From positions 1-48,399 of IMG/VR virus record IMGVR_UViG_3300042691_016077: a DNA stretch of 48,399 bases; one strand, written 5' to 3'. Both the position numbers and the translations under genes were made by a program. This stretch comes from a virus. Position 1 is the stretch's first letter; every line of letters begins with the position of its first letter. Shown one piece after another: positions 2,340 to 45,191 of the stretch. The notes below the pieces were generated by a model. The model had not been told where the DNA came from and searched no databases. It saw only the letters and a list, made by a program, of their open reading frames with translations.

Positions 2340-5287
2340 TGGGATGTGGATTTATAAATTATGAACTTTTTATAACTGGAGATTGTACAAGCTCTGGGGT
2401 TGGTGAGGTATATATTGAAATTACCGGTGGAACACCACCATATACAGTTACAGAGAGTACTACGTCTGGTTTATTACCGACTTCTGCTGGTACACTTACT
2501 TACTATTTTAGTGGTCTTACTGCGGGGACTTATGTGTTAGAAATACAAGATAGTTGTCTTTCACCAGCACCAACAGTTACTTACCTCAACATTCCGATAT
2601 CTTCTGGAACTACAATCCAAATAAACGATATAATACACACAACCTGTGGGGATAATAATGGCATTATTGAGTTTGAATTTAATCCTTTTTATGGTAGTGG
2701 TTATTATGAACTTTATGAGACTACATTAGGTTATATATCTAGTGGTCAAACAGCAATTGCAACAAATTCAGTTGGCCCACTTACTGCTGGTAGATATTAT
2801 TTTATCGGTGATGATGGTGGTGGCTGTACGGGGTCTAGTGCCACGGCAATTGTATTAAGTTCAAACACTTTAGATTATGGTTTTTATGTTGTAAACGACG
2901 CTAGTTGTGTTGTTGGTACTGGAGCTGGAAAAATATTTATTACTGGACAAACAGGTACTCCACCGTACACATATCTTTGGACGACTAGTGCAACAACAGA
3001 TAATATAACTGGCTTAACGGCTGGTAGTTATGGTGTAACAGTTACAGATTCTGATGGTTGTTCTTTATCTAAAACAGTTGATGTTAATTATGTACAACCT
3101 GTGGGCATCGGAAGTGTTACGGGTGTACAACCATCTTGTTTTTCTAGTGATGGTGAAATAACTTTAATTGTAACTGGAGGTACGGCACCTTATTATTATT
3201 CGGGATCAAACGGGTCTGTTGAAATTTCATTTTCCGACACACACACCTTTAGTGGGTTACCGTCTGGAAATTTTTATTACCTTGTAACAGACGCGGGACT
3301 TTGTACAACAAGCGGCAATACACTACTTATAACACCAAACTCATTTTCTTTTGGGTCTGTTACAACAACAAATTCAAATTGTAGTGGTTCTGATGGGACA
3401 ATAGATATATCAGTAAACGGCGGCTCGCCAGTTGGTACGTTTACCTATGTTTTAATTGATAATTCCGGTAACACAGTTCAGAGTATAGTTACAGCAACAA
3501 ACACAACATTTAATAATGTCTCATCTGGTACTTATACTTTTACAATAGATAATGGAAGTGGCTGTGGATACACAGGAACAACAACCGTCACTAATACAGA
3601 TAAGTTTACAATAACTGGATTAACAACAACTGGGACAACCTGTGGATTGTGTAATGGAAGTGTACAAGTAACAGTTTCTTCTGGAGGTACACTACCGTAT
3701 TCCTACCAAATTAATGGTTTCCCATCTTCCCAAGTCACAACTTATAATAATTTGTGTCCTGGTTTCTATACAGTAGTTGTTACAGACGCAGACGGTTGTC
3801 AACAAACAGATACTTTTGTTATAACACAATCTAACAAGGTTGATTTTATACCATACATAACACAACCAATATTTGGAAATGATGGGGATATTAAACTTTT
3901 CATAACCCAAGGTACACCACCATTCACATATAACTGGAGTCCAAATGTAAACGGACAAATCGGCGCGGGAGTTACTGGACTTACAGCCGGAACTTATGTT
4001 ATTGAAGTTGTTGATAGTACTTCTTGTTCAACAACAAAGACTGTTAAATTAAAAGGAACAAAACAAGTTGCCAGCTATCAAATATATAATGTATGTGAAG
4101 GTAATTTTGAAACAAACGGACTAATTGGGGAAAGGTCAATTTTTCAATTATACAATGAAGGATATTATTCTTTAACAACAAATGATTTTAATTGTATATT
4201 AGACAATGCAACATTTATTGCGGAAACAATAGTTGATGGTGTCACAAAACAAGAACCTTTCTACACCTCAATTAATATAGGTGATTACCCAACAACACAA
4301 GATTGGGTAAATGTAGTTACAAATTTATTAAATCAATACGAACAAATTGGTGATGTAATTTTTGATATAACAAATAACACTGTAACCATATATAATTTTT
4401 GTAAACAAACACAAGATTGTGAACCAAAAACTTATAACGAACTTACAAATTCATTGGTTATTGTAAATTTAATAATAAATTATGATATTGCATGTGTTGA
4501 ATGTGACATACCACCAACGCCAACACCAACAACAACAAAAGCCCCAACACCAACACCAACACCCACATTAACACCAACACCATCACCAGGTGTGTTAAAA
4601 GTATATACTATGACTTGGAATACAAATTTAACTGGTTTTGGTACTACAAACATCTACAATGTTAGATTACCATTTAAATCAACTGGTACATATTCTAATG
4701 GTACAATTAATTGGGGTGACGGAAATACTAGTCCATTATCTTATGCTAATAGACAACATACTTATGTAACACCTGGTATTTACACAATTACAATTAGTTT
4801 AAATTCTGGTGGGATTTTGAATGGTTGGGATTTTGGACCGGGTAACCCAAATTCCATAGATAGGAAAAAAATAACATCAATTACAAGTTGGGGACAAATT
4901 GAATTTGTAAATAATGATAATTTCTATCAGTGTATCAATCTTACTTTGAATACAGTGACTGATACTCCAGACATTTCATCAATGACAAGTTTAAATTTCT
5001 TCTTGTTTGGTTGTACAGGACTCACTTCAGTAAATAATATTGGAAACTGGGACGTTTCAAATATAACGTCAATGTCAGAATTTTTGGGTGGAGGAGTAAT
5101 ACTTAACACATCAAATTACAATAGTCTATTACAAGGTTGGGCATCTCTAGGGTCTTCTTTACAAAATACAGTAATATTTGATGCTCAAACAACATATTAT
5201 AGTGCTGCACCAAGTGCTGGCGCTACAGCAAGAAACTATCTTGTAAGTACAAAAGGTTGGGTAATTGATGATGCTGGACCAATATAA
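2339..5287 (+). CDS. SprB-repeat tail fibre/adhesin with PKD-like and BspA/DUF285-like C-terminus
   Basis: The product has 982 residues. I place the start at the ATG overlapping the previous stop (MGCGF...), not an upstream in-frame codon at 2309. Residues ~15-570 hold about seven degenerate ~80-residue modules. Each has a Cys, a GTPPYTY-like turn, a GLTAGTY-like strand and a DxxGC end, which is the SprB repeat pattern of Bacteroidota gliding adhesins. A mixed domain follows (~575-735), then a Pro/Thr linker (~740-765). The C-terminus has a PKD-like piece (NWGDGNT...YVTPGIYTI, ~790-830) and a DUF285/BspA-like LRR segment (GCTGLTS, NWDVSNIT, ~890-920). This layout suits a host-binding fibre secured by the upstream baseplate-type protein. 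SprB, PKD and DUF285 calls come from motif pattern, not alignment. Confidence 0.75.
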   Translation: MGCGFINYELFITGDCTSSGVGEVYIEITGGTPPYTVTESTTSGLLPTSAGTLTYYFSGLTAGTYVLEIQDSCLSPAPTVTYLNIPISSGTTIQINDIIHTTCGDNNGIIEFEFNPFYGSGYYELYETTLGYISSGQTAIATNSVGPLTAGRYYFIGDDGGGCTGSSATAIVLSSNTLDYGFYVVNDASCVVGTGAGKIFITGQTGTPPYTYLWTTSATTDNITGLTAGSYGVTVTDSDGCSLSKTVDVNYVQPVGIGSVTGVQPSCFSSDGEITLIVTGGTAPYYYSGSNGSVEISFSDTHTFSGLPSGNFYYLVTDAGLCTTSGNTLLITPNSFSFGSVTTTNSNCSGSDGTIDISVNGGSPVGTFTYVLIDNSGNTVQSIVTATNTTFNNVSSGTYTFTIDNGSGCGYTGTTTVTNTDKFTITGLTTTGTTCGLCNGSVQVTVSSGGTLPYSYQINGFPSSQVTTYNNLCPGFYTVVVTDADGCQQTDTFVITQSNKVDFIPYITQPIFGNDGDIKLFITQGTPPFTYNWSPNVNGQIGAGVTGLTAGTYVIEVVDSTSCSTTKTVKLKGTKQVASYQIYNVCEGNFETNGLIGERSIFQLYNEGYYSLTTNDFNCILDNATFIAETIVDGVTKQEPFYTSINIGDYPTTQDWVNVVTNLLNQYEQIGDVIFDITNNTVTIYNFCKQTQDCEPKTYNELTNSLVIVNLIINYDIACVECDIPPTPTPTTTKAPTPTPTPTLTPTPSPGVLKVYTMTWNTNLTGFGTTNIYNVRLPFKSTGTYSNGTINWGDGNTSPLSYANRQHTYVTPGIYTITISLNSGGILNGWDFGPGNPNSIDRKKITSITSWGQIEFVNNDNFYQCINLTLNTVTDTPDISSMTSLNFFLFGCTGLTSVNNIGNWDVSNITSMSEFLGGGVILNTSNYNSLLQGWASLGSSLQNTVIFDAQTTYYSAAPSAGATARNYLVSTKGWVIDDAGPI
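4509..4590 (+). repeat. CCAACA-type hexamer repeat encoding a Pro/Thr linker
   Basis: Degenerate tandem CCAACA/CCAACN units encode alternating Pro and Thr between the SprB-repeat part and the C-terminal binding part of the fibre. The same repeat type recurs, on the other strand, in the fibre genes at 5997-8618 and 13306-14670, giving short shared homology between fibre genes. Confidence 0.8.
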
Positions 5288-5316
5288 AAAAAATATCACC
5301 TAAAAAGATGATATTT
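5286..5316 (-). terminator. Rho-independent terminator between convergent genes
   Basis: The stem AAATATCA (5291-5298) pairs with TGATATTT (5309-5316) around a 10-base loop. Read on the minus strand, the stem ends in a run of T (the A-run at 5286-5293), so it terminates the leftward fibre/RuvC unit. It may also slow plus-strand transcripts of the fibre gene ending at 5287. Confidence 0.6.
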
Positions 5317-5341
5317 CAGTTTATCGGTATTTTATACGATA

Positions 5342-5950
5342 TTAAGTCCAGATTTCTTTTGACCGCATATATCCTAATACACAAGTATAAGCGTCGGTTT
5401 GGTCAAAATTTTCTTTTTTGAGTGTGTTATTTTTTGTGTAATGCCAAGTAATTTGCGGCTCTCTTTTGGCGACCATTTCCCAAACCAACATTTTTTTATC
5501 AACATCTTTTGGTAACCCACCAAATAATACGTGTTTACCTTTATTATTTTCTTGAACTAAATCGGGCCAAGCAAATTTTCTAGAATTATATGTTGAAATA
5601 AAATCTGGTATAATTCCTAATATATCATAAACTTCTTTACAAATTAAAGTATTAAACCTTAAAAGTGTTTGTATTGTATATACATTATTTGAATTTAAAA
5701 GGGGTTCTTCAATGACAACTTTTAAGACACCTAAATCTCTATATTGTAAAAGTTTAGTTCTAAACACCTCACTTTTTAAAATAAGTTCTTTCATTTTACA
5801 ATCACCAACATCAATTGGTTTAGGTCTAGGTGAAACGTGTGTTAATTCTAAAAGCTCTTGACTACCAATATCAAATAAAGCCCAACCAATGGTTTTTGTT
5901 GAAACGTCTAGACCGAGAACTTTTGGTGAATTTTTAATTGTTTTTGACAT
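5342..5950 (-). CDS. RuvC-like (RNase H fold) Holliday-junction resolvase/nuclease
   Basis: The product has 202 residues, the usual size for RuvC-type phage nucleases. Residues ~12-27 (VLGLDVSTKTIGWALFD) give the first beta-strand with the catalytic Asp. VVIEEPL (~88-94) supplies the second acidic residue. FDQTDAYTCVLG (~183-194) carries C-terminal Asp residues in the expected position. The fold cuts branched DNA with two metal ions. In a T4-like phage it probably resolves recombination junctions before packaging, replacing the endonuclease VII type. It is the last gene of the leftward unit, about 45 bases after the fibre gene and just before a terminator. Other RNase H-fold nucleases are possible, so substrate specificity is inferred. 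Confidence 0.75.
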   Translation of the reverse strand: MSKTIKNSPKVLGLDVSTKTIGWALFDIGSQELLELTHVSPRPKPIDVGDCKMKELILKSEVFRTKLLQYRDLGVLKVVIEEPLLNSNNVYTIQTLLRFNTLICKEVYDILGIIPDFISTYNSRKFAWPDLVQENNKGKHVLFGGLPKDVDKKMLVWEMVAKREPQITWHYTKNNTLKKENFDQTDAYTCVLGYMRSKEIWT

Positions 5951-5996
5951 ATTTTTTTATTTAATAATATAGTCCGTTAAAATTAAAAATGTAGGT

Positions 5997-8618
5997 TTAG
6001 AAGTCTAATTTTACAACAAACTGTTGAATACCTTGTCTTTGTACCGGAGACTGTAATTTAGAAATTACTAAAACATCTTTGTCAGAATCCAACAAAGCAA
6101 TTTCGGTGATATAGGATTTAGTACCTGCAGACCAACTTGGATTGGTTGTATTTTTAAACTCATTCACACTCAAATTAATTTTATATTTCATTTCATAAAT
6201 TGTCGCCTGAATGTCAGTTTCTAATGAACCATAGAAATAATACTCGTCCCCAAAGTTAAGTTGAGAACCAGTAAAACTTATAGGTGTTAAAGGAACATAA
6301 TCATTTAAGTTATAGTATGGTGCTGAGTTATAGTTGTCTGGAGAAACAATAAAAGTTGAACCGGTTAAAGATTCTTCAGTGACATAACCATTTATAAATT
6401 GGTCTTCTATTTGTGTTGTAAAATCAATTATTCTCCATTGTGCAGGATCTGGTCTTTCTCCAGTATTAACAAGTTGAACTAAAACTTGAAATTTGGTTGC
6501 AACAAATCCTCTAAAGACATCACAAGATGGACAATATGTTGTTGAAGTCATACTTTTCATTGAGCCATAATAACTTGCTACTTGATAGAAGTCATTAATA
6601 TTTGGTGATAATAATAAATCTGGGTCATCACACCAAATTAAGTTGTCTAAATTTTCTGTTAAAAGTTCTAACGTATCTTCTGTTAGAATAAAACAAGTTT
6701 CTTGAAAAGGAAATGAGGTTGTTGTTGTCGTAACTGGAAAATCATAAGGTTGAACTAAACAACCAAATTCACCACCAAATCGTACCGCAACATTTTTACT
6801 ATCACCAGTAATACAATCATTATATGATATTTGTTGATAGTAGTTACAATGTAATGAATTTGTAAAACACACATCATTACTTAATCTATATGTCACATAT
6901 AATGTTTGATTAGAACCAGTTAAAAGTCCAATTGGACTAGTTTGAGTATCACAAACATTTGGTGTTGTAAGAGAAACTTGTGGAGCAGTTAAAGTCCAGT
7001 TTCTATTTGATTTATAGGACATTGCCGCCAAAATTTCCTCATCGTCAATAATAACAACTTTACTATCTGGAAATACCTTACCAATTCTACTTGGGTATCC
7101 ATCGTCATTTGGGTGTGTATCCCATAAATGATAATACCTAATTCCAGGGTTGTTCATATCTTCATTTTTTGTTGATTTAAGATAATGAACGGTAAATAAA
7201 TTTAAATCATCAAATCCAGCTGGATCAACATAAAAAGTATCACCAAAACAACATTCTGGATTTTTATGCCACATAATCCAAGGAATATGTAATTTGAAGT
7301 TTCTAGCTTGACCAGATGTGTTATTTGGGTTTGTTGGGTCGTATGGTTCTAGTGCAAATTTTTCACCATAGAAAAAGTCTACGGTTTGGTTAGTGTAGTG
7401 AATTATAGCAACCGCTTTTTGTTCTTCTGGTGTAACCGTTATTTTTTGGTCAAAAGAATTGTAGTAATATACACTACTTGTGTCTGTTTGACCAGAACTT
7501 GAGTTATAACCAAAATATTCTTTACTACCAATATAGTTTATAGAACCAAATTGTGTGTAATCTTTATAGAACGTAGATAATAACCCAGCCGGACTCTCTG
7601 TCCAAGGAATATTCATATTCCAAATTTTAACATCAAACTCATCAATATCACAAACAGTTTCAAAATTGATTACATCATCACACCAATGTGGTCTTGGGGT
7701 AAAACTATCATAAAGTTGTGTCATACTAGAAGGATAAATAATAACTCTAGCAAAACAATCAAATAAATAACAACTAAAATCTGGTGTTGGTCTATCTAAA
7801 GTAACAACATTACCACAAACAGCAACAATTCTATAAGTCAATATAGGAAAACAACTATACATAGACATATTACAATCTATTGGTGGTGGTGCTGGACACA
7901 CAGCACTAGAAGACGGTGTTATACAAGGCGTTGATGTTGGTGTTGGGGTTGGAGATGGAGTAAGACAAGGTGGTACTAAAGCACTTGAACTAGGTGTTGG
8001 TGTTAGTGTTGGTGTTGAATTAGGTGAAGACGTTGGGGTTGGGGTTGGTAAATTAACACACCCACAGTTATATTTTGCGTAACCATCGTAATATATTGTA
8101 ATAATATCACCAACAGAAGGTCTATTTGTGTTTGTATGGTTACAACCAGAATAAATTAACTCAATATCTTTAGAACCATCTAAAGTTAATAAATCAACAA
8201 CATAGTTTGAACTTACAACATAATTATTAGTTGTAATTGCACTCCAGGTAATTGTTGAAGCTGTAGTATTACCAGTAAAAAAACCCCTTAGTGGTGCACG
8301 ATTAAAAACAGGGTCGGCTGTTGAATCGTTGAATGGTATACCATAGGTATTTCCAGTTAAACCGTCAACAAAATATGGGTATTTTACACTTTGTTTGTTT
8401 GATTGGGGAACCCCAAAACTATTTTGTTGATTAAATGCTGGTTCTAAAACAAAACTATTTGTTTGGTTATAAGAATTTGGAAGCTTATCATATGAAACCT
8501 CACTATCACCAACTTGAAAATAAGAAATATTGAAATTTCCTTGAGATAGTTTTTGTCTACCAGTGTCAGTAACTCTTGTATTAACTAAACCCGAAGTATT
8601 TTTAATTATGTATGCCAT
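5997..8618 (-). CDS. Large virion/fibre-associated protein with Pro/Thr-rich linker
   Basis: The product has 873 residues. The N-terminus (MAYIIKNTSGLVNTRVTDTG, then KLSQGNFNISYFQVGDSE) looks like the conserved head of a long phage structural protein, probably the part that attaches to the tail. Residues ~185-245 form a Pro/Thr/Ser linker (PTPTPTSS, STPTLTPTPSSS) with scattered Cys. The rest is rich in aromatic residues, Asn, Thr and Cys and shows no enzyme motif. It is followed 46 bases later by the RuvC-like gene and preceded 12 bases upstream by the SprB-type gene at 8631. A sense TATTTAT element lies 5 bases upstream of its ATG (8624-8630). The fibre/tail assignment rests on context and composition. 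Confidence 0.6.
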   Translation of the reverse strand: MAYIIKNTSGLVNTRVTDTGRQKLSQGNFNISYFQVGDSEVSYDKLPNSYNQTNSFVLEPAFNQQNSFGVPQSNKQSVKYPYFVDGLTGNTYGIPFNDSTADPVFNRAPLRGFFTGNTTASTITWSAITTNNYVVSSNYVVDLLTLDGSKDIELIYSGCNHTNTNRPSVGDIITIYYDGYAKYNCGCVNLPTPTPTSSPNSTPTLTPTPSSSALVPPCLTPSPTPTPTSTPCITPSSSAVCPAPPPIDCNMSMYSCFPILTYRIVAVCGNVVTLDRPTPDFSCYLFDCFARVIIYPSSMTQLYDSFTPRPHWCDDVINFETVCDIDEFDVKIWNMNIPWTESPAGLLSTFYKDYTQFGSINYIGSKEYFGYNSSSGQTDTSSVYYYNSFDQKITVTPEEQKAVAIIHYTNQTVDFFYGEKFALEPYDPTNPNNTSGQARNFKLHIPWIMWHKNPECCFGDTFYVDPAGFDDLNLFTVHYLKSTKNEDMNNPGIRYYHLWDTHPNDDGYPSRIGKVFPDSKVVIIDDEEILAAMSYKSNRNWTLTAPQVSLTTPNVCDTQTSPIGLLTGSNQTLYVTYRLSNDVCFTNSLHCNYYQQISYNDCITGDSKNVAVRFGGEFGCLVQPYDFPVTTTTTSFPFQETCFILTEDTLELLTENLDNLIWCDDPDLLLSPNINDFYQVASYYGSMKSMTSTTYCPSCDVFRGFVATKFQVLVQLVNTGERPDPAQWRIIDFTTQIEDQFINGYVTEESLTGSTFIVSPDNYNSAPYYNLNDYVPLTPISFTGSQLNFGDEYYFYGSLETDIQATIYEMKYKINLSVNEFKNTTNPSWSAGTKSYITEIALLDSDKDVLVISKLQSPVQRQGIQQFVVKLDF
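7894..8052 (-). repeat. CCAACA-type hexamer repeats encoding the Pro/Thr linker
   Basis: Tandem degenerate GGTGTT/GTTGGN units are seen on the plus strand, encoding PTPTPTS-like runs on the minus strand. They are of the same kind as the repeats at 4509 and 13574-14343. Confidence 0.75.
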
Positions 8619-24846: not shown

Positions 24847-25716
24847 ATGAATGTATTAAGTTTGTTTGATGGAATGTCTTGTGGACAAATTGCTTTAAAT
24901 CGTGCCGGTATTCATTATGAGAATTACTATGCTTCAGAAATTGATAAACATGCAATACTTGTAACAATGAGTAACTATCCTAATACTATCCAACTTGGTG
25001 ATGTTATGGATTTGGTTGGTACAGATTTACCTAAAATTGATTTATTAATTGGTGGTAGTCCGTGTCAAAGTTTTAGTAATGCCGGAAACGGTACCGGTTT
25101 TGAAGGTAAATCTGGTTTATTTTGGGAATATGTTAGAATATTAAAAGAAACCCAACCAAAATATTTTTTGTTAGAAAATGTAAAAATGCGAAAAGAATGG
25201 CAGGACATTATTTCAAAATCATTAGAAGTACAACCAGTAGAAATTAATTCAAAATATTTTGTACCTCAAAATAGACCAAGATTATATTGGACTAATATAA
25301 TTATTGATGAAATACCGAATTCTTATACTCATTGTTTAAATGATATTTTAGAACAAGCACCATTAGAATATTATTTGACTAATAAACAAAAAACAATACT
25401 TGATTTGGATTATAAATGGAGTGAAAATGAAATTATACGACATAAAGCTGGTAAACATCAACAAGATAATATCTATAGGTATGATGGTATAATGTGTTGT
25501 TTATCCGCATCAAGTCACGGAGCCGCAAGACATTTAACTAAAACTTATTTACCTAATGGTGATTTAAGAAGATTAACCGAAAATGAAGTTGAAAAACTAC
25601 AAAGTGTTCCGATAAATTACACTAATTATGTTTCATCATCAAAAAGATACGAAATGTTGGGTAATGGTTGGACTGTTGATGTTATAGCACATATATTTAA
25701 AAATATTGAACAATGA
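24847..25716 (+). CDS. C5-cytosine DNA methyltransferase 1 of 4 (SPCQSFS type)
   Basis: The product has 289 residues. Motif I is LSLFDGMSCGQIALNRAG (~4-21). Motif IV is GGSPCQSFSNAG (~71-82), with the catalytic Cys. Motif VI is LLENVKM (~109-115), motif VIII QNRPRLYWTNI (~139-149) and motif X MLGNGWTVDVIAHIF (~269-283). The region between motifs VIII and IX (~150-235) should be the target-recognition domain. The enzyme would put 5-methylcytosine at a specific site, protecting phage DNA from host restriction. Its PCQSFS...TGFEGKSGLFWEY block matches copy 3, while its N-terminus is closer to copy 4. It overlaps the next copy by 4 bases. Confidence 0.92.
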   Translation: MNVLSLFDGMSCGQIALNRAGIHYENYYASEIDKHAILVTMSNYPNTIQLGDVMDLVGTDLPKIDLLIGGSPCQSFSNAGNGTGFEGKSGLFWEYVRILKETQPKYFLLENVKMRKEWQDIISKSLEVQPVEINSKYFVPQNRPRLYWTNIIIDEIPNSYTHCLNDILEQAPLEYYLTNKQKTILDLDYKWSENEIIRHKAGKHQQDNIYRYDGIMCCLSASSHGAARHLTKTYLPNGDLRRLTENEVEKLQSVPINYTNYVSSSKRYEMLGNGWTVDVIAHIFKNIEQ

Positions 25717-26528
25717 ATGTATTAAGTCTTTTTGATGGGATGAGCTGTGGCCAAATCGCACTAAACCGTTTGGGAATAAAATATGATAAGTATTTTGCAT
25801 CTGAAATTGATAAGTTTGCAATACAGGTAACACAACATAACTATCCAGAAACAATCCAGATTGGTGATGTAACACAAGTAAAAGGTTCTGACCTACCATC
25901 AATTGATTTACTTATTGGTGGTAGTCCGTGCCAGGGATTTTCATTTGCTGGTAAACAATTAAATTTTGATGATGAACGAAGTAAATTGTTTTTTGAATTT
26001 GTAAGGTTAATGGAAGAATGTAAACCAAAGTACTTTCTACTTGAAAATGTTGTAATGAAAAAAGAATATGAAGATGTTATAACAGAACATATGGGTGTAA
26101 AACCAATTCTTATAAATAGTAATCTTGTATCGGCACAAAATAGGAAAAGACTTTACTGGACCAACATACCAAACATAGAGCAACCAGAAGATTCAAACAT
26201 AACAATGTCTAACATACTTTTAAGTGGACAACACATAATTGTATCAAAACAAAAAAAGGAACATAAACCTGGTGGTGATAAGTCAGCGACATTACTTGCA
26301 AGAGACTACAAAGGATTTGGTAATCAACAAATGAGTGGTGTTATGGATAATGGTAATATTAGAATGTTAACACCAGTAGAATACGAAAGATTACAAAATG
26401 TCCCAGATAATTATTCTTCAGTTGCTTCAAACACACAGAGATATAAAATGTTAGGAAATGGCTGGACAGTGGGGGTTATTGAACACATATTCAAAAATAT
26501 GAAGTATGAATATATTGAGTCTATTTGA
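25713..26528 (+). CDS. C5-cytosine DNA methyltransferase 2 of 4 (SPCQGFS type)
   Basis: The product has 271 residues, the shortest copy. Motif I is LSLFDGMSCGQIALNRLG, motif IV GGSPCQGFSFAGKQLNF (~71-87), motif VI LLENVVMKKEYED, motif VIII QNRKRLYWTNIPNIEQPED and motif X MLGNGWTVGVIEHIF. It shares the PCQGFSFAG...FEFVRL block and the NSNLVSAQ string with copy 4. The target-recognition region is short (~180-225). Its last residues (KYEYIESI) are encoded by bases that also encode the start of copy 3, a 23-base overlap. All catalytic residues are present. Confidence 0.92.
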   Translation: MNVLSLFDGMSCGQIALNRLGIKYDKYFASEIDKFAIQVTQHNYPETIQIGDVTQVKGSDLPSIDLLIGGSPCQGFSFAGKQLNFDDERSKLFFEFVRLMEECKPKYFLLENVVMKKEYEDVITEHMGVKPILINSNLVSAQNRKRLYWTNIPNIEQPEDSNITMSNILLSGQHIIVSKQKKEHKPGGDKSATLLARDYKGFGNQQMSGVMDNGNIRMLTPVEYERLQNVPDNYSSVASNTQRYKMLGNGWTVGVIEHIFKNMKYEYIESI

Positions 26529-27411
26529 TGGTGTTTCATGCGGCCAATTAGCACTACAACGAGCTGGCATTAAGTATGATAAATATTTTGCTAGTGAGAT
26601 TGATAAACACGCAATTAAGGTCACACAACATCATTTCCCAAATACAATACAATTAGGTAGTGTTGTAGATTTAGACACCTCAACATTATCAAAAATTGAT
26701 TTGTTGTTTGGTGGATCCCCTTGTCAATCATTTAGTAGGTCTGGTGATAATACTGGATTTGATGGTAAGAGTGGTTTATTTTGGGAGTATATTAGAATAC
26801 TAAATGAATTGAAACCAACATACTTTCTTCTTGAAAATGTTGTAATGAAAAAAGAATGGGAAAATATTATAACAGAAGCTATTGGTGTTGAACCAGTAAT
26901 GATTGATAGTAAATTTTTTTCAGCACAAAAAAGACAAAGACTTTATTGGACAAACATACCATTTGATAAAAATATTGAAGACAAGAATATACACATATTA
27001 GATATTCTAATACCAACTGGTGAAGAAAAAATAATTAATGACCATATCCTTGTCCTTGATATTAATGAAGAAGGTTTTAAAATAAAAAATGGAACAAAAA
27101 CTGGCTATCTTTATGCCAAAGAAGGTGATTGTGTAAATTTAGAATTTCCTAAAAGTCAAAATAGAAGAGGTAGAGTAAGTTATGGTAAAACAAACACAAT
27201 TAACACCGCTTGTAATTATGGTGTTATTGTAAACGGTAATTTACGAGAGTTAAACATTACAGAATATGAAAGACTACAAACACTTCCAGATGGGTATACA
27301 TCTATGATTTCTTTAAACCAAAGAAAAAATGTTTTGGGTAATGGTTGGACTGTTGATGTTATAGGACACATTTTTAAAAATTTGAAGTATGAATGTATTA
27401 AGTCTATTTGA
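26506..27411 (+). CDS. C5-cytosine DNA methyltransferase 3 of 4 (SPCQSFS type)
   Basis: The product has 301 residues. Motif I is LSLFDGVSCGQLALQRAG, motif IV GGSPCQSFSRSGDNTGFDGK (~71-90), motif VI LLENVVMKKEWEN, motif VIII QKRQRLYWTNI and motif X VLGNGWTVDVIGHIF. The catalytic block matches copy 1, while the N-terminal IKYDKYFASEIDK string matches copy 2. The target region (~160-240) is longer, with VLDINEEGFKIKNGTKTGYL. The C-terminal KYECIKSI again comes from the 23-base overlap with the next start. The copy is intact. Confidence 0.92.
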   Translation: MNILSLFDGVSCGQLALQRAGIKYDKYFASEIDKHAIKVTQHHFPNTIQLGSVVDLDTSTLSKIDLLFGGSPCQSFSRSGDNTGFDGKSGLFWEYIRILNELKPTYFLLENVVMKKEWENIITEAIGVEPVMIDSKFFSAQKRQRLYWTNIPFDKNIEDKNIHILDILIPTGEEKIINDHILVLDINEEGFKIKNGTKTGYLYAKEGDCVNLEFPKSQNRRGRVSYGKTNTINTACNYGVIVNGNLRELNITEYERLQTLPDGYTSMISLNQRKNVLGNGWTVDVIGHIFKNLKYECIKSI

Positions 27412-28297
27412 TGGATTATCTTGTGGACAAATAGCACTTGAACGTGCTGGTATTACTGTGGATAATTACTATGCGTCCGAAATTGATAAACACGCAATTA
27501 AAGTAACCCAACATAATTATCCCAACACAATACAGTTAGGTGATGTTACACAAATAAAAGGTGAAAATTTACCCCAAATTGATTTGTTAATTGGTGGATC
27601 CCCTTGTCAAGGATTTTCATTTGCCGGAAGACAGCTAAACTTCAACGATCCAAGAAGTAAATTATTTTTTGAATTTATCAGACTAAAGAATGAGTTAAAC
27701 CCAAAATACTTTTTATTGGAAAACGTTGTAATGAAACAAGAATTCCAGGATGTTATAACGGAATATATGGGTGTTAGACCAATTAAAATAAATAGTAATT
27801 TAGTTTCAGCACAAACAAGAGAACGTCTATATTGGACCAACATACCAAATGTTGAACAACCAGAAAATCTTGGTATAAAACTAGAAGACATACTAGAAGA
27901 TATTGGTCCAGATGGAAATTACTACAATAGAAAAAAATTAAATAAGGCAACAATTCTTGGACGAAGATTAAACGAACACGGTAAAAGAGATGATTATAAT
28001 AAATCAATACCTATAAGTCAATGCCTAGAAGTAAGAGCAACAAATAGAGATAAGAGTAACTGCATTACAACTGTGGCTAAAGATAATGTATTAACAACGT
28101 TACCGATTGGAAGACATAAAGACGCATTTAAAAACAAACTACCATTTAGATATTATACCATTAAAGAACATTGTAGATTACAAACAGTACCGGATAATTA
28201 TTTTGATGGTGTTGCTAGTGAAAATCAAATAAGAAAGATGATTGGTAATGGATGGACTGTAGATGTGATAAAATATATATTTGCTAAAATTTGTTAA
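27389..28297 (+). CDS. C5-cytosine DNA methyltransferase 4 of 4 (SPCQGFS type)
   Basis: The product has 302 residues. Motif I is LSLFDGLSCGQIALERAG, motif IV GGSPCQGFSFAGRQLNF, motif VI LLENVVMKQEFQD, motif VIII QTRERLYWTNIPNVEQPEN and motif X MIGNGWTVDVIKYIF (~283-297). It is close to copy 2 in the catalytic block but near copy 1 at the N-terminus (ITVDNYYASEIDKHAI). The target region (~170-255) includes SQCLEVRATNRDKSNCITT, a distinct recognition sequence. It lacks the KYE..ESI-type tail because no further copy follows. It ends 6 bases before the promoter at 28303. Confidence 0.92.
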   Translation: MNVLSLFDGLSCGQIALERAGITVDNYYASEIDKHAIKVTQHNYPNTIQLGDVTQIKGENLPQIDLLIGGSPCQGFSFAGRQLNFNDPRSKLFFEFIRLKNELNPKYFLLENVVMKQEFQDVITEYMGVRPIKINSNLVSAQTRERLYWTNIPNVEQPENLGIKLEDILEDIGPDGNYYNRKKLNKATILGRRLNEHGKRDDYNKSIPISQCLEVRATNRDKSNCITTVAKDNVLTTLPIGRHKDAFKNKLPFRYYTIKEHCRLQTVPDNYFDGVASENQIRKMIGNGWTVDVIKYIFAKIC

Positions 28298-28302
28298 AAA
28301 AT

Positions 28303-28333
28303 TTTGTAGATTAAAATAAAATACATACCTTTG
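28303..28333 (+). promoter_or_regulatory. Bacteroidota-type promoter (TTTG-N19-TACCTTTG)
   Basis: TTTG (28303-28306) and TACCTTTG (28326-28333) are separated by 19 bases, the same geometry as at 15861. The gene at 28361 follows 27 bases downstream. The promoter gives a short transcript containing that gene and the structured RNA ending in the terminator at 28709-28734. Confidence 0.75.
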
Positions 28334-28360
28334 TATCGTTAATCAATTAAATATTTGTAT

Positions 28361-28594
28361 ATGTCAGGTTTATGTAAAAGAGTTGAAAAGAATTACCAAG
28401 TTCTTAAAAGTGGTGTTAAGAATAACACACTTACCATTGATGAGATTGATCATATGACTTGTGAGTTAATCACGTTTTTATCTATGTTGACTGAACAGAG
28501 AATAACACATATCAACGCTGATGAGACCGTTGACCGTTATAAAGAACGGGTGTGGAATATTGTAGAGAATGCCGGACTTTTACCGGAATTGTAA
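28361..28594 (+). CDS. Small hypothetical protein
   Basis: The product has 77 residues (MSGLCKRVEKNYQVLKSGVK..., ending VENAGLLPEL). I prefer the ATG at 28361 over a TTG 6 bases earlier. It is helical and charged with no known family. It has its own promoter and a structured, terminator-ended 3' region. This suggests a separately regulated early small protein, or that the RNA downstream is the functional part of the transcript. Confidence 0.6.
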   Translation: MSGLCKRVEKNYQVLKSGVKNNTLTIDEIDHMTCELITFLSMLTEQRITHINADETVDRYKERVWNIVENAGLLPEL

Positions 28595-28605
28595 AATATT
28601 TAAAA

Positions 28606-28735
28606 ATGGGTTGAACCGAGATTACCCATACAACTCGGCGGAATGAGACACGAGGCTCTCTGGGTGAAACTCCTCAACTATGTCTATATGGCATAGTGAA
28701 ACTACACTCCCCCATTGGTACCAGTGGGGGTTTTA
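28606..28735 (+). ncRNA. Candidate structured RNA with H-type pseudoknot
   Basis: Stem 1 ATGGGT (28606-28611) pairs with ACCCAT (28624-28629). Inside its loop CCGAG (28616-28620) pairs with CTCGG (28634-28638) downstream, an H-type pseudoknot. Further stems are GAGG (28652-28655) with CCTC (28672-28675), and ACTATG (28677-28682) with CATAGT (28692-28697). The region ends in a strong terminator. TGGGT at 28661-28665 could alternatively pair with ACCCA (28624-28628), giving a switch-like choice. No open frame of note lies in it and it is richer in GC than its surroundings. It is transcribed as the 3' region of the 28361 gene or as a separate RNA. It matches no RNA family that I recognise. Confidence 0.6.
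28709..28734 (+). terminator. Strong rho-independent terminator
   Basis: CCCCCATTGG (28709-28718) pairs with CCAGTGGGGG (28721-28730), with one G-T pair, followed by TTTTATTCTT. It ends the 28303 transcript and just touches the stop of the minus-strand gene at 28733. Confidence 0.85.
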
Positions 28736-29188
28736 TTCTTCTACCCAGATTACTAATTGATCTTCACCAACTCTAAATGGGTTTGCTAAAGACTCTCTAA
28801 AGACTGTACCAATTTTAAGAATCCAGTAAGTACCACCTTGAAACATTGGATAAATAACAAGAGCTAATTCCCATTTTAACGATTTAATAACAAATGGAAT
28901 TTCATTTTCTATTTCTCTAGAAACAATTTTTTCGGCAATTTCTTTTTTTGCCAAATTTATAAGTTCTTTTATTTCACCATTACTAATTTCACGCTGATTG
29001 TATTCGTAACTATGTTTACCTGTTAGTTCATAACCCTTACCCTCAAGTTCTTTTCTGTCCTTTCTTGCAAAACCATGAGAACCTCTATCAACTTCTAAAT
29101 TAAAGGTTACTTCCAGATTAGAAACGATTTGAGCTATAGTTTTTTCTAATAAAAGGTGTTTTCTAATTGATTCTCTTAATAAGTCCAT
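28733..29188 (-). CDS. Hypothetical protein with shared N-terminal tag
   Basis: The product has 151 residues. The N-terminus MDLLRESIRKHLLLEKTIAQ resembles the start of the products at 33137, 38123 and 43701 (basic amphipathic helix, then KxLLxE). The rest has a helical middle (EIKELINLAKKEIAEKI) and a beta-rich end (LVIYPMFQGGTYWILKIGTV). It is the only leftward gene of its stretch, and its stop lies in the terminator tail of the opposite gene. Function unknown; a virion-packaged protein is an inference from the tag. Confidence 0.55.
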   Translation of the reverse strand: MDLLRESIRKHLLLEKTIAQIVSNLEVTFNLEVDRGSHGFARKDRKELEGKGYELTGKHSYEYNQREISNGEIKELINLAKKEIAEKIVSREIENEIPFVIKSLKWELALVIYPMFQGGTYWILKIGTVFRESLANPFRVGEDQLVIWVEE

Positions 29189-29234: not shown

Positions 29235-30269
29235 ATGAAAGAAAAATTTTTACCTTGGTTTTTATTATTTTGTGCTCTTGGTTTATCGGCAACAGCCGCT
29301 TATTACAGTGTTGTTGGATTATCAATTGTGTTTGTTGGCGTTGCAATTCCTGTGATTATAATGGGATCATTTCTTGAAATATCAAAAATAGCAATCGCCA
29401 CATATCTTCACGACAAATGGAAAGAAACATATGGTGCTCTTAAAATTTATATGACTACAGCACTTATAACATTATCCATTATAACATCGTTAGGTATCTA
29501 CGGATTATTAAGTACAGGGTTTCAAGGGAACATTGCGAAACTTGAGATAAGTGAAAAACAAATAAAGAATGTTGAAGTTAAGAAAAAAAGATTTGAAGAA
29601 ATAAAAACTGAATTAACAAAAGAAAAAACAACTCTTGATGGTGATATTACAAAATTAAGAGACGGTCTCTCTACGAATACAACAACACAAACTGTAGATC
29701 AGAAGACAGGTCAGTTAATAACAAGAGCCAATAACGCAAATAGAAAATCATTTGAAGGACAATTAAAAGACGCACAAACAAGAAGAGATACAATCTCAAA
29801 AAAGATTGACGGATATAACGATAGTATTACAAAACTTGATATTCAGATTTTAGATATGCAATCGCAAGACATTAATAGTAGTGAACTTGGTGCTATTAAA
29901 TATGTTAGTGAACTTCTTAATTGGGATATAAAAAAAACAGCAAATCTTTTTATTTTGATTTTGATTTTTGTGTTTGACCCGTTGGCAATTACTTTAGTTA
30001 TTGCAACAAATCAAGCCTTTAAAGGTAACAAAAAAGATGAGGATACACCTCAACCACCCACCAACCACCCCACAACCACCCCCCAAGTTACCATACAAGA
30101 TACCGACCAAGTAAATCCAATTATTATTGAAAAAATTGTTGAAGTTCCCGTTTATTTAGAAAAGGATGAAACACCAATTGATGAATATTTTGATTTAGAA
30201 AATACAGATTTAGATTTACAGGAAGAAAATAAAGTTAAGAGATTAAGATACACTAAAAAAAATGATTGA
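29235..30269 (+). CDS. Multi-span membrane protein with periplasmic/cytoplasmic coiled coil
   Basis: The product has 344 residues. Hydrophobic helices lie at ~7-27, ~30-50 and ~70-90, then a long charged coiled coil (~100-215), then another helix (~233-255: ANLFILILIFVFDPLAITLV). The C-terminal tail is Pro/Thr-rich (PQPPTNHPTTTPQVT) and then acidic, with an IIEKIVEVPVYLEK string like the VEKIVEVP repeats in the 18939 product. It is the first gene of the lysis-containing unit and overlaps the endolysin start by 8 bases. It could be a holin-like or host membrane-remodelling protein, but its size and coiled coil are unlike classic holins. Confidence 0.6.
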   Translation: MKEKFLPWFLLFCALGLSATAAYYSVVGLSIVFVGVAIPVIIMGSFLEISKIAIATYLHDKWKETYGALKIYMTTALITLSIITSLGIYGLLSTGFQGNIAKLEISEKQIKNVEVKKKRFEEIKTELTKEKTTLDGDITKLRDGLSTNTTTQTVDQKTGQLITRANNANRKSFEGQLKDAQTRRDTISKKIDGYNDSITKLDIQILDMQSQDINSSELGAIKYVSELLNWDIKKTANLFILILIFVFDPLAITLVIATNQAFKGNKKDEDTPQPPTNHPTTTPQVTIQDTDQVNPIIIEKIVEVPVYLEKDETPIDEYFDLENTDLDLQEENKVKRLRYTKKND

Positions 30270-33136: not shown

Positions 33137-34516
33137 ATGAATAATAACTATTACGATAGACTTTTTAAAAAAATTCTGAACGAAACTTTAGAAGAAAAAG
33201 CAAATTCACTTGTGAAAACACTAAAATTAAATAAAGATTCAGAATTTGATTATGTACAAGAAGATGATGATTTTTTAGGTATGGATAAATTTAATAAATA
33301 CAGACGAGACACAGAGTACAAATCTAAAAAAGATGCTAGAAGAATGGCAGATAGAGATATGTCTAAACACTTCAAGAGTCCAGGAGATCCTTGGGCAACA
33401 GATGTTAATCCATCTGAAAAATGGCCAAAACATAAATTACCATATGACACCAAATTCAATTTTGATGAATTATCTGAAGGAGCTGAAGTATGTAATGAGT
33501 GTGGGTTAGGAATGATGATGGAAGGCGAATGTAATGAGTGTGGTTATAGAAAAATGTCAATGAAAGAAAGTAAAGAAAAATGTAACGAATGTGGTATGGG
33601 AACTATGAAAGAGGGTGAATGCAATGAGTGTGGTTATAGAAAAATGTCTATGGAAGAACATAAAAAATTATCAAATAAACAAAAATATATAGCAGGTCAA
33701 GAAAAACCATATGATGAAATCGGATCAAATGATTTAAGAAAATTAAGAGCAAAAAAAACAGAAACTAAAGAAAGCGGTTTTCCAGATTTAAGTGGTGATA
33801 AAAGAGTCACTAGAAAAGATGTTTTGATAGGTAGAGGAGTTTTAGACAAAAAAGGAAATAAAATAAAAAGAAAACAAAACGAAACCGTTTATAGAATTTA
33901 TAGTGGTAAAGAGTCTGCCGTTTTTACAGAAAATGAAGTTATTGATATGATTGAACAATTTGTTAATGAAGAAAAACAAAAATTCAAAAAAGGTCAAACA
34001 CCAGCTGGATATGAGGCATACGAAAAAGCTGTAAAACAATCTAAAAAAAACAATGACGATTATATTAATTCAGTATTGAAAAAAATTAAAGACTATACAA
34101 AAACAGGTTCTGAAACAACATATGAAATGAATCCAGAAAGTTTCCCACAAGGAAATGGTGAGTTTAAAGAATCTGAAAAGAAAGCTTACTCAACATCTAA
34201 AGAAGGGACAGATTGGAATTACGAATACGCTGGACAAATGGTACCAGATTTTGATCCACCTATGCCAAGTAAAGAAAGATTTAAAAAACAAATTGAAGGA
34301 TCAGCAGAAAACGCTAACGTACAAGGATGGGGTAATAGCGTAAAAACAAAAACTAATTCTAAATTTGCTAAAATATTTGATAAAGATCCACTTGGTAAAG
34401 CTAAAGACGAAACTTACAAAAGAGCTGATCAACCTGTTACATTATCAAAGGGAAAATTAAAAGAAGATTTTGATAGAATTAAAGAGTTAATGAAATATAA
34501 TGATAAGACTCAATAA
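33137..34516 (+). CDS. Lys/Glu-rich protein with duplicated zinc-ribbon repeat and N-terminal tag
   Basis: The product has 459 residues. The tag-like start (YYDRLFKKILNETLEEKANS, ~5-24) resembles those of the 28733, 38123 and 43701 products. Residues ~117-175 contain two ~30-residue copies with CNECG...GECNECGYRKMSM; each has four Cys in two CxxC pairs and so can bind one zinc. The rest is Lys/Glu-rich and disordered-looking, with a second helical patch (ENEVIDMIEQFVNEEKQKFK). The highly charged composition resembles scaffolding or core proteins, but this is inference. Its stop lies 27 bases before the hairpin at 34543. Confidence 0.55.
   Translation: MNNNYYDRLFKKILNETLEEKANSLVKTLKLNKDSEFDYVQEDDDFLGMDKFNKYRRDTEYKSKKDARRMADRDMSKHFKSPGDPWATDVNPSEKWPKHKLPYDTKFNFDELSEGAEVCNECGLGMMMEGECNECGYRKMSMKESKEKCNECGMGTMKEGECNECGYRKMSMEEHKKLSNKQKYIAGQEKPYDEIGSNDLRKLRAKKTETKESGFPDLSGDKRVTRKDVLIGRGVLDKKGNKIKRKQNETVYRIYSGKESAVFTENEVIDMIEQFVNEEKQKFKKGQTPAGYEAYEKAVKQSKKNNDDYINSVLKKIKDYTKTGSETTYEMNPESFPQGNGEFKESEKKAYSTSKEGTDWNYEYAGQMVPDFDPPMPSKERFKKQIEGSAENANVQGWGNSVKTKTNSKFAKIFDKDPLGKAKDETYKRADQPVTLSKGKLKEDFDRIKELMKYNDKTQ
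33491..33661 (+). repeat. 90-base direct repeat encoding the doubled Cys4 ribbon
   Basis: Copy 1 starts at 33491 (TGTAATGAGTGTGG) and copy 2 at 33581 (TGTAACGAATGTGG). The phase is 90 bases (30 residues) and each contains a second TGTAATGAGTGTGG-like or TGCAATGAGTGTGG unit. The high DNA similarity suggests a fairly recent internal duplication. Confidence 0.75.
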
Positions 34517-38122: not shown

Positions 38123-40216
38123 ATGGAATTAGTTGGAATTTTATCAAAAGTTGTAAAAGAAAGTTTAACCACAAAAAAAATATTATTAGAATATCCTGAA
38201 TCAACGGTAAAAAGATTACTTGATAAGTTTTCTCAAGGTACTGATGATACTGAAGAGGAAATCAGAAAAGTAATTGCTGACTTTGAAAGATTTAAAGGTG
38301 GTTTTGCTACAGATGAAAAAAATGAACTTAAGCAACTTAACGACCAGTTAAAAACTTTAGAACCGTCTTCTCAAGAGTATAAAGATTTACAAACTAGAAT
38401 CCGTGACTTAAACAAAACGGTACAAGATACTCTAGACATATTCAAATACGACTATGAAAGTTTAAAAAATCTTACAGCAGAAAAAGATACAAAACAAAAA
38501 ACCAAAAAAACACTTGAGTCTTTGGTACAAGACTATGTACAAAAATACAAAGGTACTGATTTACAAATGACTAAAACTAACGTAAAAAAGTTTTTTGAAG
38601 TCAAGACCCATTTACCCGAAGTTAGAGAGTTTAAAAAAGAAATAACATCTTTCAACCCAGCCCAACTAAATGAGCTAGTTGGGAAATATTTCTCAACTTT
38701 TAATAACCAAGGTGTGAATGAATATGTTATTGCTATTGCTCAAAAATTTCACGAAGAAAAACCAGATGAGGATGTAATGACAACACTTCTCCCAAGAGCA
38801 AAACGATTTGCAAGACATTTTGAATTAATCCCACTTAATGCTAAATTAAGTAAGTATATGACTTTTGAAGAGTTTGAACACGTTGTTGATGGTTATACAC
38901 CAATGGAAGAAAGTGATTATACCATACCAGAAATTGATACAAGTGATGTCAATATTCCGTATGAAGATGATAACGTATTAATTTTTGCTCCAGACGAAAA
39001 ACAAAAATGTATCAATATTAGAAAAAAACATGCTCCAGATAGAAGATGGTGTACATCTTGGGAGGGAGCAGGAAACTATTATTACAATTATAGATTAAAT
39101 CAAAACCTTACTTTATATTACATTATTAATAAAACTTTACCATCTTCAGATACAAATTACGCTTCAGTAATTTTGGTTGATAGATATGGTGAAATGAGAC
39201 TTGCAGACGGAACTAACTCTGGACGGTATTCAGGGAGTCAAGTAGTTCCTTGGAGTGAAATTTTATCAAAAATACCAGTATTAAAAGGAAAAGAACAATA
39301 CCTAGAAGCGAAACCATTCTCAACTGAAGATATGGATAAAATGCAAAGATATAAACAACTTAATTTAAGAACCACAGATCCAGTTGCGGAATTGGGTGGT
39401 GAAAAAGAAGTTGAGATGTGGTTAGAACTAAGAAGTCCAGATTTGTCAAGTACTCAAAATGGTGATGAAATATTTAGAAATTTACCAGAAGAATCACAAA
39501 AAAAGTATATTGGTTTGGGTAATGACTTAACACCTAGAATGATTAAAAATTTAAGTGATGACGCAACCAACCCAAATAATCCTGGTATGGCCAAAGCACA
39601 ATCTATTTTGACTTATTATGCCGGAAAAAAACGTGACAAATTATTACAAAAATCATTAAAGGAATTATCAGATAAAGATGTTGCACTCATAGTAAGTGAT
39701 GAAATGAAACAGTACTTACCTGATTTAAAAAGAAGATATATTAGTGAGTTAGGTAGTGATATTGATCCAAGTTATACTTTAATTGAATACCCTACTAGTG
39801 TTACAGGAAAGTTCATTAGAATTTTTGGTCCAGACGAACTATTTGAATTTTTACCAGAAGATATTGGGTTCTTACAAATTGAAAATAAGTCAAGTGAAGA
39901 TTGGGTAATTAAAATTCCAGAATCATTTGACCGATTTAGTCAATTGACAACTTTAGTTTTTGAAAACTGTATAAAAGAATTACCAGAGTCAATTGGAAAT
40001 ATAAGAGGTTTACACTTTTTAAATTTGACAAACAATAAACATATGACAAAATTACCAAAAAGTATTGTTAATTTAAGATGTTTAGATTTTATGTCAGTAC
40101 TTGGAACACCAATTGTTTTTGAAAAACTACCAGAAGAATTTAGAAAATATTGGAATTATGATAAAGAAGGTTTCTGGGAACCTAACTATCCAGAAGAAAT
40201 GAAACAACACTGTTAA
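38123..40216 (+). CDS. Large multidomain protein: tag, coiled coil, WCTS domain and leucine-rich repeats
   Basis: The product has 697 residues. Residues 1-35 (LSKVVKESLTTKKILLEYPE) match the shared N-terminal tag. Residues ~50-170 are coiled coil. Residues ~280-390 hold a compact domain with CINIRKKHAPDRRWCTSWEG (~300-319) and LTLYYIINKTLPSS (~330-343). This Trp-Cys-Thr motif recurs, as far as I remember, in large proteins of T4-like phages, with unknown role. Residues ~620-690 are leucine-rich repeats (IPESFDRFSQLTTLVFENC; ELPESIGNIRGLHFLNLTNN; KLPKSIVNLRCLDFMSV). LRRs in phages are rare and usually bind proteins. A candidate packaged or injected polyvalent protein; function inferred. Confidence 0.6.
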   Translation: MELVGILSKVVKESLTTKKILLEYPESTVKRLLDKFSQGTDDTEEEIRKVIADFERFKGGFATDEKNELKQLNDQLKTLEPSSQEYKDLQTRIRDLNKTVQDTLDIFKYDYESLKNLTAEKDTKQKTKKTLESLVQDYVQKYKGTDLQMTKTNVKKFFEVKTHLPEVREFKKEITSFNPAQLNELVGKYFSTFNNQGVNEYVIAIAQKFHEEKPDEDVMTTLLPRAKRFARHFELIPLNAKLSKYMTFEEFEHVVDGYTPMEESDYTIPEIDTSDVNIPYEDDNVLIFAPDEKQKCINIRKKHAPDRRWCTSWEGAGNYYYNYRLNQNLTLYYIINKTLPSSDTNYASVILVDRYGEMRLADGTNSGRYSGSQVVPWSEILSKIPVLKGKEQYLEAKPFSTEDMDKMQRYKQLNLRTTDPVAELGGEKEVEMWLELRSPDLSSTQNGDEIFRNLPEESQKKYIGLGNDLTPRMIKNLSDDATNPNNPGMAKAQSILTYYAGKKRDKLLQKSLKELSDKDVALIVSDEMKQYLPDLKRRYISELGSDIDPSYTLIEYPTSVTGKFIRIFGPDELFEFLPEDIGFLQIENKSSEDWVIKIPESFDRFSQLTTLVFENCIKELPESIGNIRGLHFLNLTNNKHMTKLPKSIVNLRCLDFMSVLGTPIVFEKLPEEFRKYWNYDKEGFWEPNYPEEMKQHC

Positions 40217-43700: not shown

Positions 43701-45191
43701 ATGAAAAAAGTTTTTAGACTTACGGAACATAAATTAATTAATCGTTTAAAACGATTAATTAAAGAGGATGAAATAGAAGAAGTTGAAATTAGTCCAGAAG
43801 AATATATTGAGTTACTTAAAAAAGTTTTCTTTCAAGCACAGGCAATTCCAAAACTACCAAAATTTAAAGGAAAAAAATTGGTGATAAAAGGAAATTTGGA
43901 TTTAACAGATTTTAATGAACGAAAACAATTAGTTGATTTAGGACCAATTAAAATTGACGGTGATATAAACGTATCTTACACAAACATTCAAAATTTAGAC
44001 AATACTGAAGTTACAGGGTCTATGAGATATTGGAACACTCCTTATAATAAAGTTATGGATAGGAGAGCCCAACAAAAAAAATACGCAGCTCAAAACAATA
44101 GAAGAGAAAATAATGAATGGGATTTAGATGATACTGACGAGGAAGGCGAAAAAGCAAATGTTGCATTTATGTATGCCGAGCAGGAAGGTGATATTACAGC
44201 TTTAAGTGATGAAGATAAAGAAAGATTGGAATATTTAAGAACACAACTTTCTGAATTGGAAACTCAAATGGAAAATGAGGATGATGAAGAAAAATATGAT
44301 AAATTATCTGAAGAATATGACGAAGTACAAGAAGAAATTGACGGCTTTGAAGAGTATGTTGATGTATATGATTTTTATCCAAACGGAAAACATTGGTATA
44401 TGACATCTTTTGAATCTTTATCTACTGGAAATGAATATGCTGTCGGAACTGAATATGAAGCCGATAGAAGTTTAGAGGAGTACATAGATGAGATGATAAA
44501 CGACGCGGAAAATATGTTTGACACTAGGCATTTATCAAACTATATTGATGGGAGAAAAGTGAGAGATGAGTTTGAATACGCTGTTGAGGAATGGGTAAGA
44601 GAATCTCCAGATTCTTATGGTGTTGAAAAACAATTAAGTGATGACCAAGAAGAAGAAATTTGGTTACTTGAAATGGAAAAGTGGGTTTATGAAAATGAGG
44701 GAGTAAGAGCCCCAATTCAATTACCAACCAGAGAAGAAGGAAATGTTTTTGATTTTGAAGACGCCGAAGGTAATAGATTTGAATATAAAAATGAAGGAAG
44801 TGGTTGGGTTTTATATGAAGATGGGCAAGTAGTACCACCACATCAAATATATGATGATGAAGATACGGACGAACATCAAGAAGCTAGAGATGAAAGAATT
44901 TCAGATATTGATTATGAAATAGAAGAAATAAAAGACAATCCAGATGGTGATCCAGATGAAGACTCTATTGAACAAGCAGTTGATGATTATCTTGAGAGTA
45001 TTGAAGATGACCCACTTACATTTTTACAAGATATGGGATATGACAACTATAAAGATTTTATTGACGAAGATGAATTAAGAGATGATTTAGGAAGAGATTA
45101 CGATTATGGTGATGCACTTAATAGTTCTAATAATAATTATGATGAATTTACTGTAAATGGAACTAGATATATTGTGATGCAATATAATTAA
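43701..45191 (+). CDS. Very acidic protein with basic N-terminal tag
   Basis: The product has 496 residues. The basic tag MKKVFRLTEHKLINRLKRLI (1-20) is followed by a strongly acidic body (DDTDEEGEKAN; EEKYDKLSEEYDEVQEEIDG; DDEDTDEHQEARDER). A strand-rich section at ~55-100 (KKLVIKGNLDLTDFNERKQL ... KIDGDINVSYTNIQNLDNT) suggests a small beta-solenoid. The tag plus acid-rich, repetitive body resembles scaffold/core proteins or DNA mimics; no enzyme motif. A perfect 14-base inverted repeat lies in the tag codons (43734-43762). Confidence 0.55.
   Translation: MKKVFRLTEHKLINRLKRLIKEDEIEEVEISPEEYIELLKKVFFQAQAIPKLPKFKGKKLVIKGNLDLTDFNERKQLVDLGPIKIDGDINVSYTNIQNLDNTEVTGSMRYWNTPYNKVMDRRAQQKKYAAQNNRRENNEWDLDDTDEEGEKANVAFMYAEQEGDITALSDEDKERLEYLRTQLSELETQMENEDDEEKYDKLSEEYDEVQEEIDGFEEYVDVYDFYPNGKHWYMTSFESLSTGNEYAVGTEYEADRSLEEYIDEMINDAENMFDTRHLSNYIDGRKVRDEFEYAVEEWVRESPDSYGVEKQLSDDQEEEIWLLEMEKWVYENEGVRAPIQLPTREEGNVFDFEDAEGNRFEYKNEGSGWVLYEDGQVVPPHQIYDDEDTDEHQEARDERISDIDYEIEEIKDNPDGDPDEDSIEQAVDDYLESIEDDPLTFLQDMGYDNYKDFIDEDELRDDLGRDYDYGDALNSSNNNYDEFTVNGTRYIVMQYN
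43734..43762. repeat. Perfect 14-base inverted repeat in the tag codons
   Basis: TTAATTAATCGTTT (43734-43747), one A, then AAACGATTAATTAA (43749-43762) form a perfect palindrome. It lies inside the 43701 gene, in the codons for KLINRLKRLIK. It could be an operator, an RNA hairpin that slows translation, or a by-product of the repetitive helix. Confidence 0.7.

Follow-up and report, generated by a model that had tools for sequence, protein, structure and literature searches.

A structured RNA with a nearly invariant pseudoknot core predicted in large environmental phages of Bacteroidetes-like bacteria

The window analyzed here is the complete 48,399-nt stretch of the virus record IMGVR_UViG_3300042691_016077. 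Its positions 28606 to 28735 form the distal part of a predicted transcription unit that starts with a host-type promoter, includes a small gene and a series of stems, and ends in an intrinsic terminator; the next gene is transcribed convergently. The features of this locus are as follows.

28303–28306 and 28326–28333, plus strand: predicted Bacteroidetes-type promoter with −33 TTTG and −7 TACCTTTG, recognized by its match to the consensus
28361–28594, plus strand: 77-aa ORF, an accessory gene on the same predicted transcript, not conserved with the RNA
28606–28611 with 28624–28629, plus strand: stem P1 (ATGGGT with ACCCAT), in which the inner GGGT/ACCC is invariant and the next pair alternates between AU and UA
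28616–28620 with 28634–28638, plus strand: pseudoknot stem P2 (CCGAG with CTCGG), invariant in all aligned members
28644–28648 with 28657–28661, plus strand: P3 hairpin (TGAGA with TCTCT, loop with ACGA), with two-sided changes in 4 of 5 pairs
28662–28664 with 28672–28674, plus strand: P4 hairpin (GGG with CCT, GAAA-type loop), with AU, GU, or GC as the closing pair
28677–28684 with 28690–28697, plus strand: P5 hairpin (ACTATGTC with GGCATAGT), with two-sided changes in 4 of 8 pairs
28709–28717 with 28722–28730, followed by TTTT and ending at 28734, plus strand: intrinsic terminator, found by a terminator search
28733–29188, minus strand: gene of family F8 encoding a 151-aa protein, an optional convergent neighbor with a candidate RegB/RelE-like RNase fold, not judged to be part of the function of the RNA

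The promoter follows the Flavobacterium consensus TTTG/TANNTTTG (PMC6847099) and places the predicted transcription start at about 28338. A single terminator was found in the interval 28250–28800, compared to 0.2 expected. The unit of ∼400 nt proposed in the sequence-only reading, running from this promoter through the 77-aa ORF and the stems to the terminator, has all its parts in place, and the region is indeed richer in GC (0.46 in 28600–28719) than its surroundings (0.2 to 0.38). Further upstream, four methyltransferase-like genes, together with the 77-aa gene, separate the RNA from a sigma factor gene. These four tandem cytosine-C5-methyltransferase-like genes (24847–28297) contain the GGSPCQ and ENV motifs; most relatives have none at this place.

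For its composition, the segment 28590–28750 has a low folding energy (z = −3.2), with only 1 of 200 shuffled sequences as low. The nested minimum-energy fold does not include P1 and prefers the helix TTACCCA/TGGGTGA instead. Pairing of the TGGGT at 28661–28665 with ACCCA had been proposed as the second state of a two-state switch. However, this pairing is not kept among the relatives: in the alignment of 23 distinct members, the alternative helix is 81.7% paired and a pair of it is lost in 13 sequences; columns 22 and 58 are mispaired in 13 of the 23 and columns 23 and 57 in 7 of the 23. Because the outer pair of P1 covaries and the alternative loses a pair in more than half of the sequences, the comparison decides for P1 and against the alternative helix.

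The same 23 members were used in a covariation test of the P1+P2+P3+P4+P5 model with 500 shuffles. Paired cells amounted to 94.2%, compared to 87.1% in the shuffles, and 60 cells were changed on both sides, compared to 18.8, a value not reached in any of the 500 shuffles. Sliding the strands by 1 to 3 columns reduced the pairing to 38 to 50%. Compensatory changes, whose absence had been set beforehand as the refutation of a structured RNA, are therefore found in the homologues; they come from P3, P5, the closing pair of P4, and the outer pair of P1, which is AU in 11 and UA in 10 of the 23 members. The predicted secondary structure thus has the support from covariation that is expected of a stand-alone phage noncoding RNA. 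The number of stems after the pseudoknot needed correction, as there are three (P3, P4, and P5) rather than two. The exceptions in P5 include 36 G-U cells and only 3 A-C cells; since G-U is tolerated and A-C hardly at all, it is the plus strand that appears to be folded as RNA.

The pseudoknot itself is supported differently. The 6-base stem ATGGGT/ACCCAT was correctly described, and its outer pair changes on both sides, but the inner GGGT/ACCC and the whole of P2 are invariant in the aligned members. All five pairs of P2 are perfect in every member and never vary, so that covariation gives no proof of P2 despite its conservation, and the proposed pseudoknot draws its support from perfect complementarity and H-type geometry. 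The claim of an H-type pseudoknot therefore holds as regards the placement of CCGAG and CTCGG and the fit of the geometry, whereas P2 shows no compensatory changes.

The conserved fold (P1 to P5) occupies ∼105 nt and is followed by the terminator. In two groups of divergent phages, L078/L086 and L104/L138/L142/L170/L171, the core is kept while the sequences of P3 and P4 are wholly different. In divergent members, the fold is built with other letters, such as CTGAAC/GTTCAG in L078, TGAATG/CATTCA in L104, and TGAGTA/TACTCA in L172. A long form with an extra closed domain of ∼80 nt between P5 and the terminator is found in L172 and in L104, L138, L142, L170, and L171. Copies of this domain share GCTCAGACAAA ahead of the terminator; the L172 copy is located at 7440–7630 on the reverse strand.

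An exact-core pattern of the RNA already matched 17 IMG/VR contigs, and the broadest of the relaxed pattern scans found the element in 92. These scans left P1, P2, or the loops open and all reached the same set of contigs; even when P2 was left free, the true members returned were exclusively CCGAG/CTCGG. Several of the RNA-bearing records are 130 to 290 kb long, and each of the 32 phage records searched contained exactly one copy. Judging from these sequences, the predicted pseudoknot core has stayed the same almost letter for letter in ∼90 large environmental viruses of Bacteroidetes-like bacteria. Among 84,980 bacterial and archaeal genomes (one per species), there was one true homologue, L172, in a contig of a Bacteroidetes metagenome-assembled genome (MAG) with chromosomal-looking genes around it; a second match, in Streptomyces, was dismissed as a chance one. 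In the Bacteroidota, a covariance-model search was positive in 1 of 395 genomes, the one with L172, and a 2-mismatch pattern search of 395 genomes of its class returned the same single genome. A host-derived gene was accordingly rejected as the origin of the RNA.

The Rfam 15 search of the whole window at the gathering threshold gave no matches, and a permissive search of 28280–28780 gave only subthreshold matches with E values up to 10, the best scoring 20.6 bits versus the required 65. Searches with the relatives L172 and L104 likewise yielded nothing at threshold. Neither named phages nor plasmids matched the RNA in blastn searches, and a search for tRNA and tmRNA was negative. Mimicry of CRISPR/tracrRNA, suggested by the GTTG...CAAC in the RNA, was considered, and no similar host RNA was found. 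A weak match in L196/L197 (16.9 bits) was rejected as a mere P4-like hairpin, GGGGTGAAACTCCCC, ahead of a tRNA. In L196, positions 1–8414 encode twenty tRNAs within 8.4 kb of a phage contig, one of which is directly preceded by the GGGGTGAAACTCCCC hairpin. No description of this RNA family was found in the open-access papers searched. With no Rfam match at the gathering threshold and with compensatory changes in the homologues, the suggestion of a previously unrecognized structured RNA is borne out, and the segment 28606–28735 is, as judged from sequence comparison, a member of an uncatalogued family of phage structured RNAs. The family, its fold, and its pattern of conservation appear to be new; small phage noncoding RNAs as a kind are already known.

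The reading favored here, with a probability of roughly 0.6, is that of a phage-encoded structured noncoding RNA that would act in trans and whose pseudoknot shape a protein or large molecular machine would recognize. Conservation is packed in P1, P2, and their loops, and the conserved unpaired stretches do not exceed ∼6 letters. Recognition of the shape is therefore the most likely mode of action, and P3 to P5 could serve as spacers or props, for which shape would be important and sequence would not. Given that the core is kept almost letter for letter, the RNA probably has a specific function in infection.

The genes upstream of the RNA bear on the main alternative, a cis-acting 3′ untranslated region (3′-UTR) element in which the pseudoknot and hairpins would protect or end the upstream mRNA, originally that of the phage sigma factor. 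At ∼40 loci without a nearby promoter, P1 begins 3 to 5 nt past the stop codon that ends F1, a gene of the sigma-70 family recognized by a Pfam match; this position also fits an element of this kind. Similarly, the RNA ends the predicted mRNA of the 77-aa gene in the window, and a terminator always follows it in the main family. However, a complete TTTG...TAnnTTTG promoter is located 19 to 31 nt upstream of the RNA core in 23 of 93 loci, including L007, L044, and L064, so that in at least 23 loci there is no upstream gene on the predicted transcript. Such promoters point to an independent RNA gene of ∼140 nt and disfavor a pure 3′-UTR element. In addition, the upstream genes (sigma factor, F12, F13, F14, F17, F19, and F21) vary and are unrelated between loci while the RNA stays constant, and an end-protecting hairpin needs no invariant core of 30 nt. 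This explanation is rather unlikely overall. At the loci with an adjacent promoter, the RNA has its own predicted promoter and terminator, as a stand-alone phage noncoding RNA should; at the others, it shares a transcript with the upstream gene.

The 77-aa gene shows the same independence. Most RNA loci lack it, the RNA is missing from the contigs that encode its homologues (L002 to L005), and the notion that the RNA is part of this gene was rejected because the two occur apart. The window and L007 have similar promoter regions, but in L007 the RNA comes immediately afterward; this suggests insertion of the 77-aa gene between promoter and RNA. Thus, the gene described in the sequence-only reading is present but does not belong to the identity of the unit, since in relatives the promoter leads directly to the RNA. 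A ligand-responsive 3′ element in cis, also proposed there, is not supported, given the lack of a conserved gene on either side and the convergent orientation of the next gene in the window. An anti-host RNA, the third suggestion, would be a possible role.

Base pairing with host or phage mRNAs, as in antisense small RNAs, is improbable. An own promoter, a terminator, and a small size are typical of bacterial small RNAs, but the absence of any conserved open stretch longer than ∼6 letters disfavors base pairing as the main mode: the longest conserved strings lie within P1 and P2, and the P5 loop and the linker differ between members.

It is very doubtful that the RNA is a riboswitch or attenuator that uses the terminator to control F0, the membrane-protein gene downstream. 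The arrangement of a compact pseudoknot ahead of a terminator does recall transcription-attenuating riboswitches, and F0 is found downstream on the same strand in about half of the loci. However, the opposite-strand F8 adjoins the RNA in the window and in 39 other neighborhoods, no downstream gene is constant on the same transcript, as the leader position of a riboswitch would require, and the alternative pairing needed for a switch is not conserved, its key pair being broken in 13 of 23 sequences. The lack of a constant regulated gene downstream thus disfavors a riboswitch. Further, F0 has its own TATTTAT motif 25 nt ahead of its start, in common with other genes of the window. This motif occurs at 45 sites on both strands of the window, and 13 of the 37 genes examined have a copy no more than 30 nt ahead of them, for example, 8 to 28 nt before those at 29235, 33137, 38123, 43701, 10901, and 12979; it is probably the phage's own late promoter element.

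A partnership of the RNA with the nearly always convergent F8, on the model of type III toxin-antitoxin systems or of an RNase and the RNA that regulates it, has an equally slim chance of being correct. F8 is the only neighbor common to the divergent phages L078, L086, L104, L138, L142, L170, and L171. The closest matches to its predicted model (pLDDT 76.5) are viral models, among them that of a site-specific RNA endonuclease from an Escherichia phage (E = 2.9e-4); in the comparison with PDB, T4 RegB was listed without significance (E = 2.3). One member matches DUF4258 at 0.0011, and residues E15, H38, T128, V129, and Q144 are invariant. According to these models, F8 may be a RelE/RegB-like, DUF4258-like RNase. 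However, F8 was undetected in 29 of 32 RNA-bearing records, which include records of 272 and 292 kb, even if some records may be fragments; the F8 homologues in L196 to L209 come without the pseudoknot RNA; and, unlike ToxI (PMC5086642), the RNA has no array of repeats. The pairing of the RNA with F8 is not obligatory, and an obligate partnership was rejected.

In L196 to L209, a different small RNA candidate takes the place of the pseudoknot RNA beside F8 (for example, near 3500–3640 on the reverse strand of L199). Its features are a TAnnTTTG promoter, in most cases a pair of hairpins whose stems differ but whose loops share the motif ACGATTYAGATAC, and a U-tract. Neither the window nor the loci of the pseudoknot RNA contain this motif, and Rfam matches in four of the candidate loci were limited to tRNAs. 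The F8 protein of the window (28733–29188) and the products of 33137–34516, 38123–40216, and 43701–45191 share a short amphipathic N-terminal motif similar to LLRESIRKHLLLEK that may be a signal for capsid targeting or for processing.

Finally, a DNA-level signal (an origin, packaging, or recombination site), which would accord with the single copy per record and the invariant core, is barely credible, given that one strand shows compensatory changes whose exceptions are G-U rather than A-C and that the promoter and terminator are oriented alike.

The trans-acting structured RNA would be transcribed from its own host-type promoter, which suggests early or middle expression, or be released from the 3′ end of an upstream gene, either the phage sigma factor gene or, in the window, the 77-aa gene. 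Its three-dimensional shape could then be recognized by a phage protein, host RNA polymerase, the ribosome, or an RNase. It is tentatively possible that this is a new class of takeover or counter-defense RNA, whose pseudoknot would, in the early or middle phase of infection, dock on a conserved machine of the host (RNA polymerase, ribosome, RNase, or defense complex) or on a phage protein and redirect it. A role has been assigned to very few of the structured RNAs that phages encode. The one described here is compact, and divergent large phages conserve both its sequence and its shape. Since phages evolve fast, a pseudoknot of 30 nt that stays invariant suggests that its partner is fixed; identifying this partner would reveal one use that phages make of structured RNA against Bacteroidetes cells or within them.

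Similarly to the type III toxin-antitoxin RNAs (ToxI, CptI, and antiQ), the RNA contains a small predicted H-type pseudoknot, belongs to the phage-host arena, and often has an RNase-like gene nearby. The type III antitoxin RNA consists of tandem repeats of a ∼35-nt pseudoknot, with repeats of 34 to 36 nt (PMC5086642). In contrast, the phage RNA forms a single predicted pseudoknot at each locus and occurs once in each record searched, with no repeat array. It also carries the extra hairpins P3 to P5 and shows no sequence similarity in Rfam; the RNase-like F8 is convergent, not encoded on the same strand downstream of the terminator as a type III toxin gene would be, and is undetected in most records.

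The preQ1-I, SAM-II, and fluoride riboswitches, like the predicted fold of the phage RNA, combine an H-type pseudoknot and an invariant core with variable helices and a terminator after them. Unlike these compact pseudoknot riboswitches, the phage RNA is not part of a conserved gene's leader and has no Rfam match. GOLLD and ROOL are conserved, ornate phage-associated RNAs whose role is unknown; the RNA described here is likewise conserved, structured, and associated with phages but is far smaller (∼130 nt versus several hundred), with no similarity to them in Rfam. 6S RNA is a long hairpin with a central bubble, and put of phage HK022, which acts on RNA polymerase, is a pair of hairpins. The pseudoknot RNA has neither of these structures, nor an Rfam match to either; like 6S RNA and the phage RNAs acting on RNA polymerase, it is encoded beside a transcription-control gene, in this case that of a phage sigma factor.
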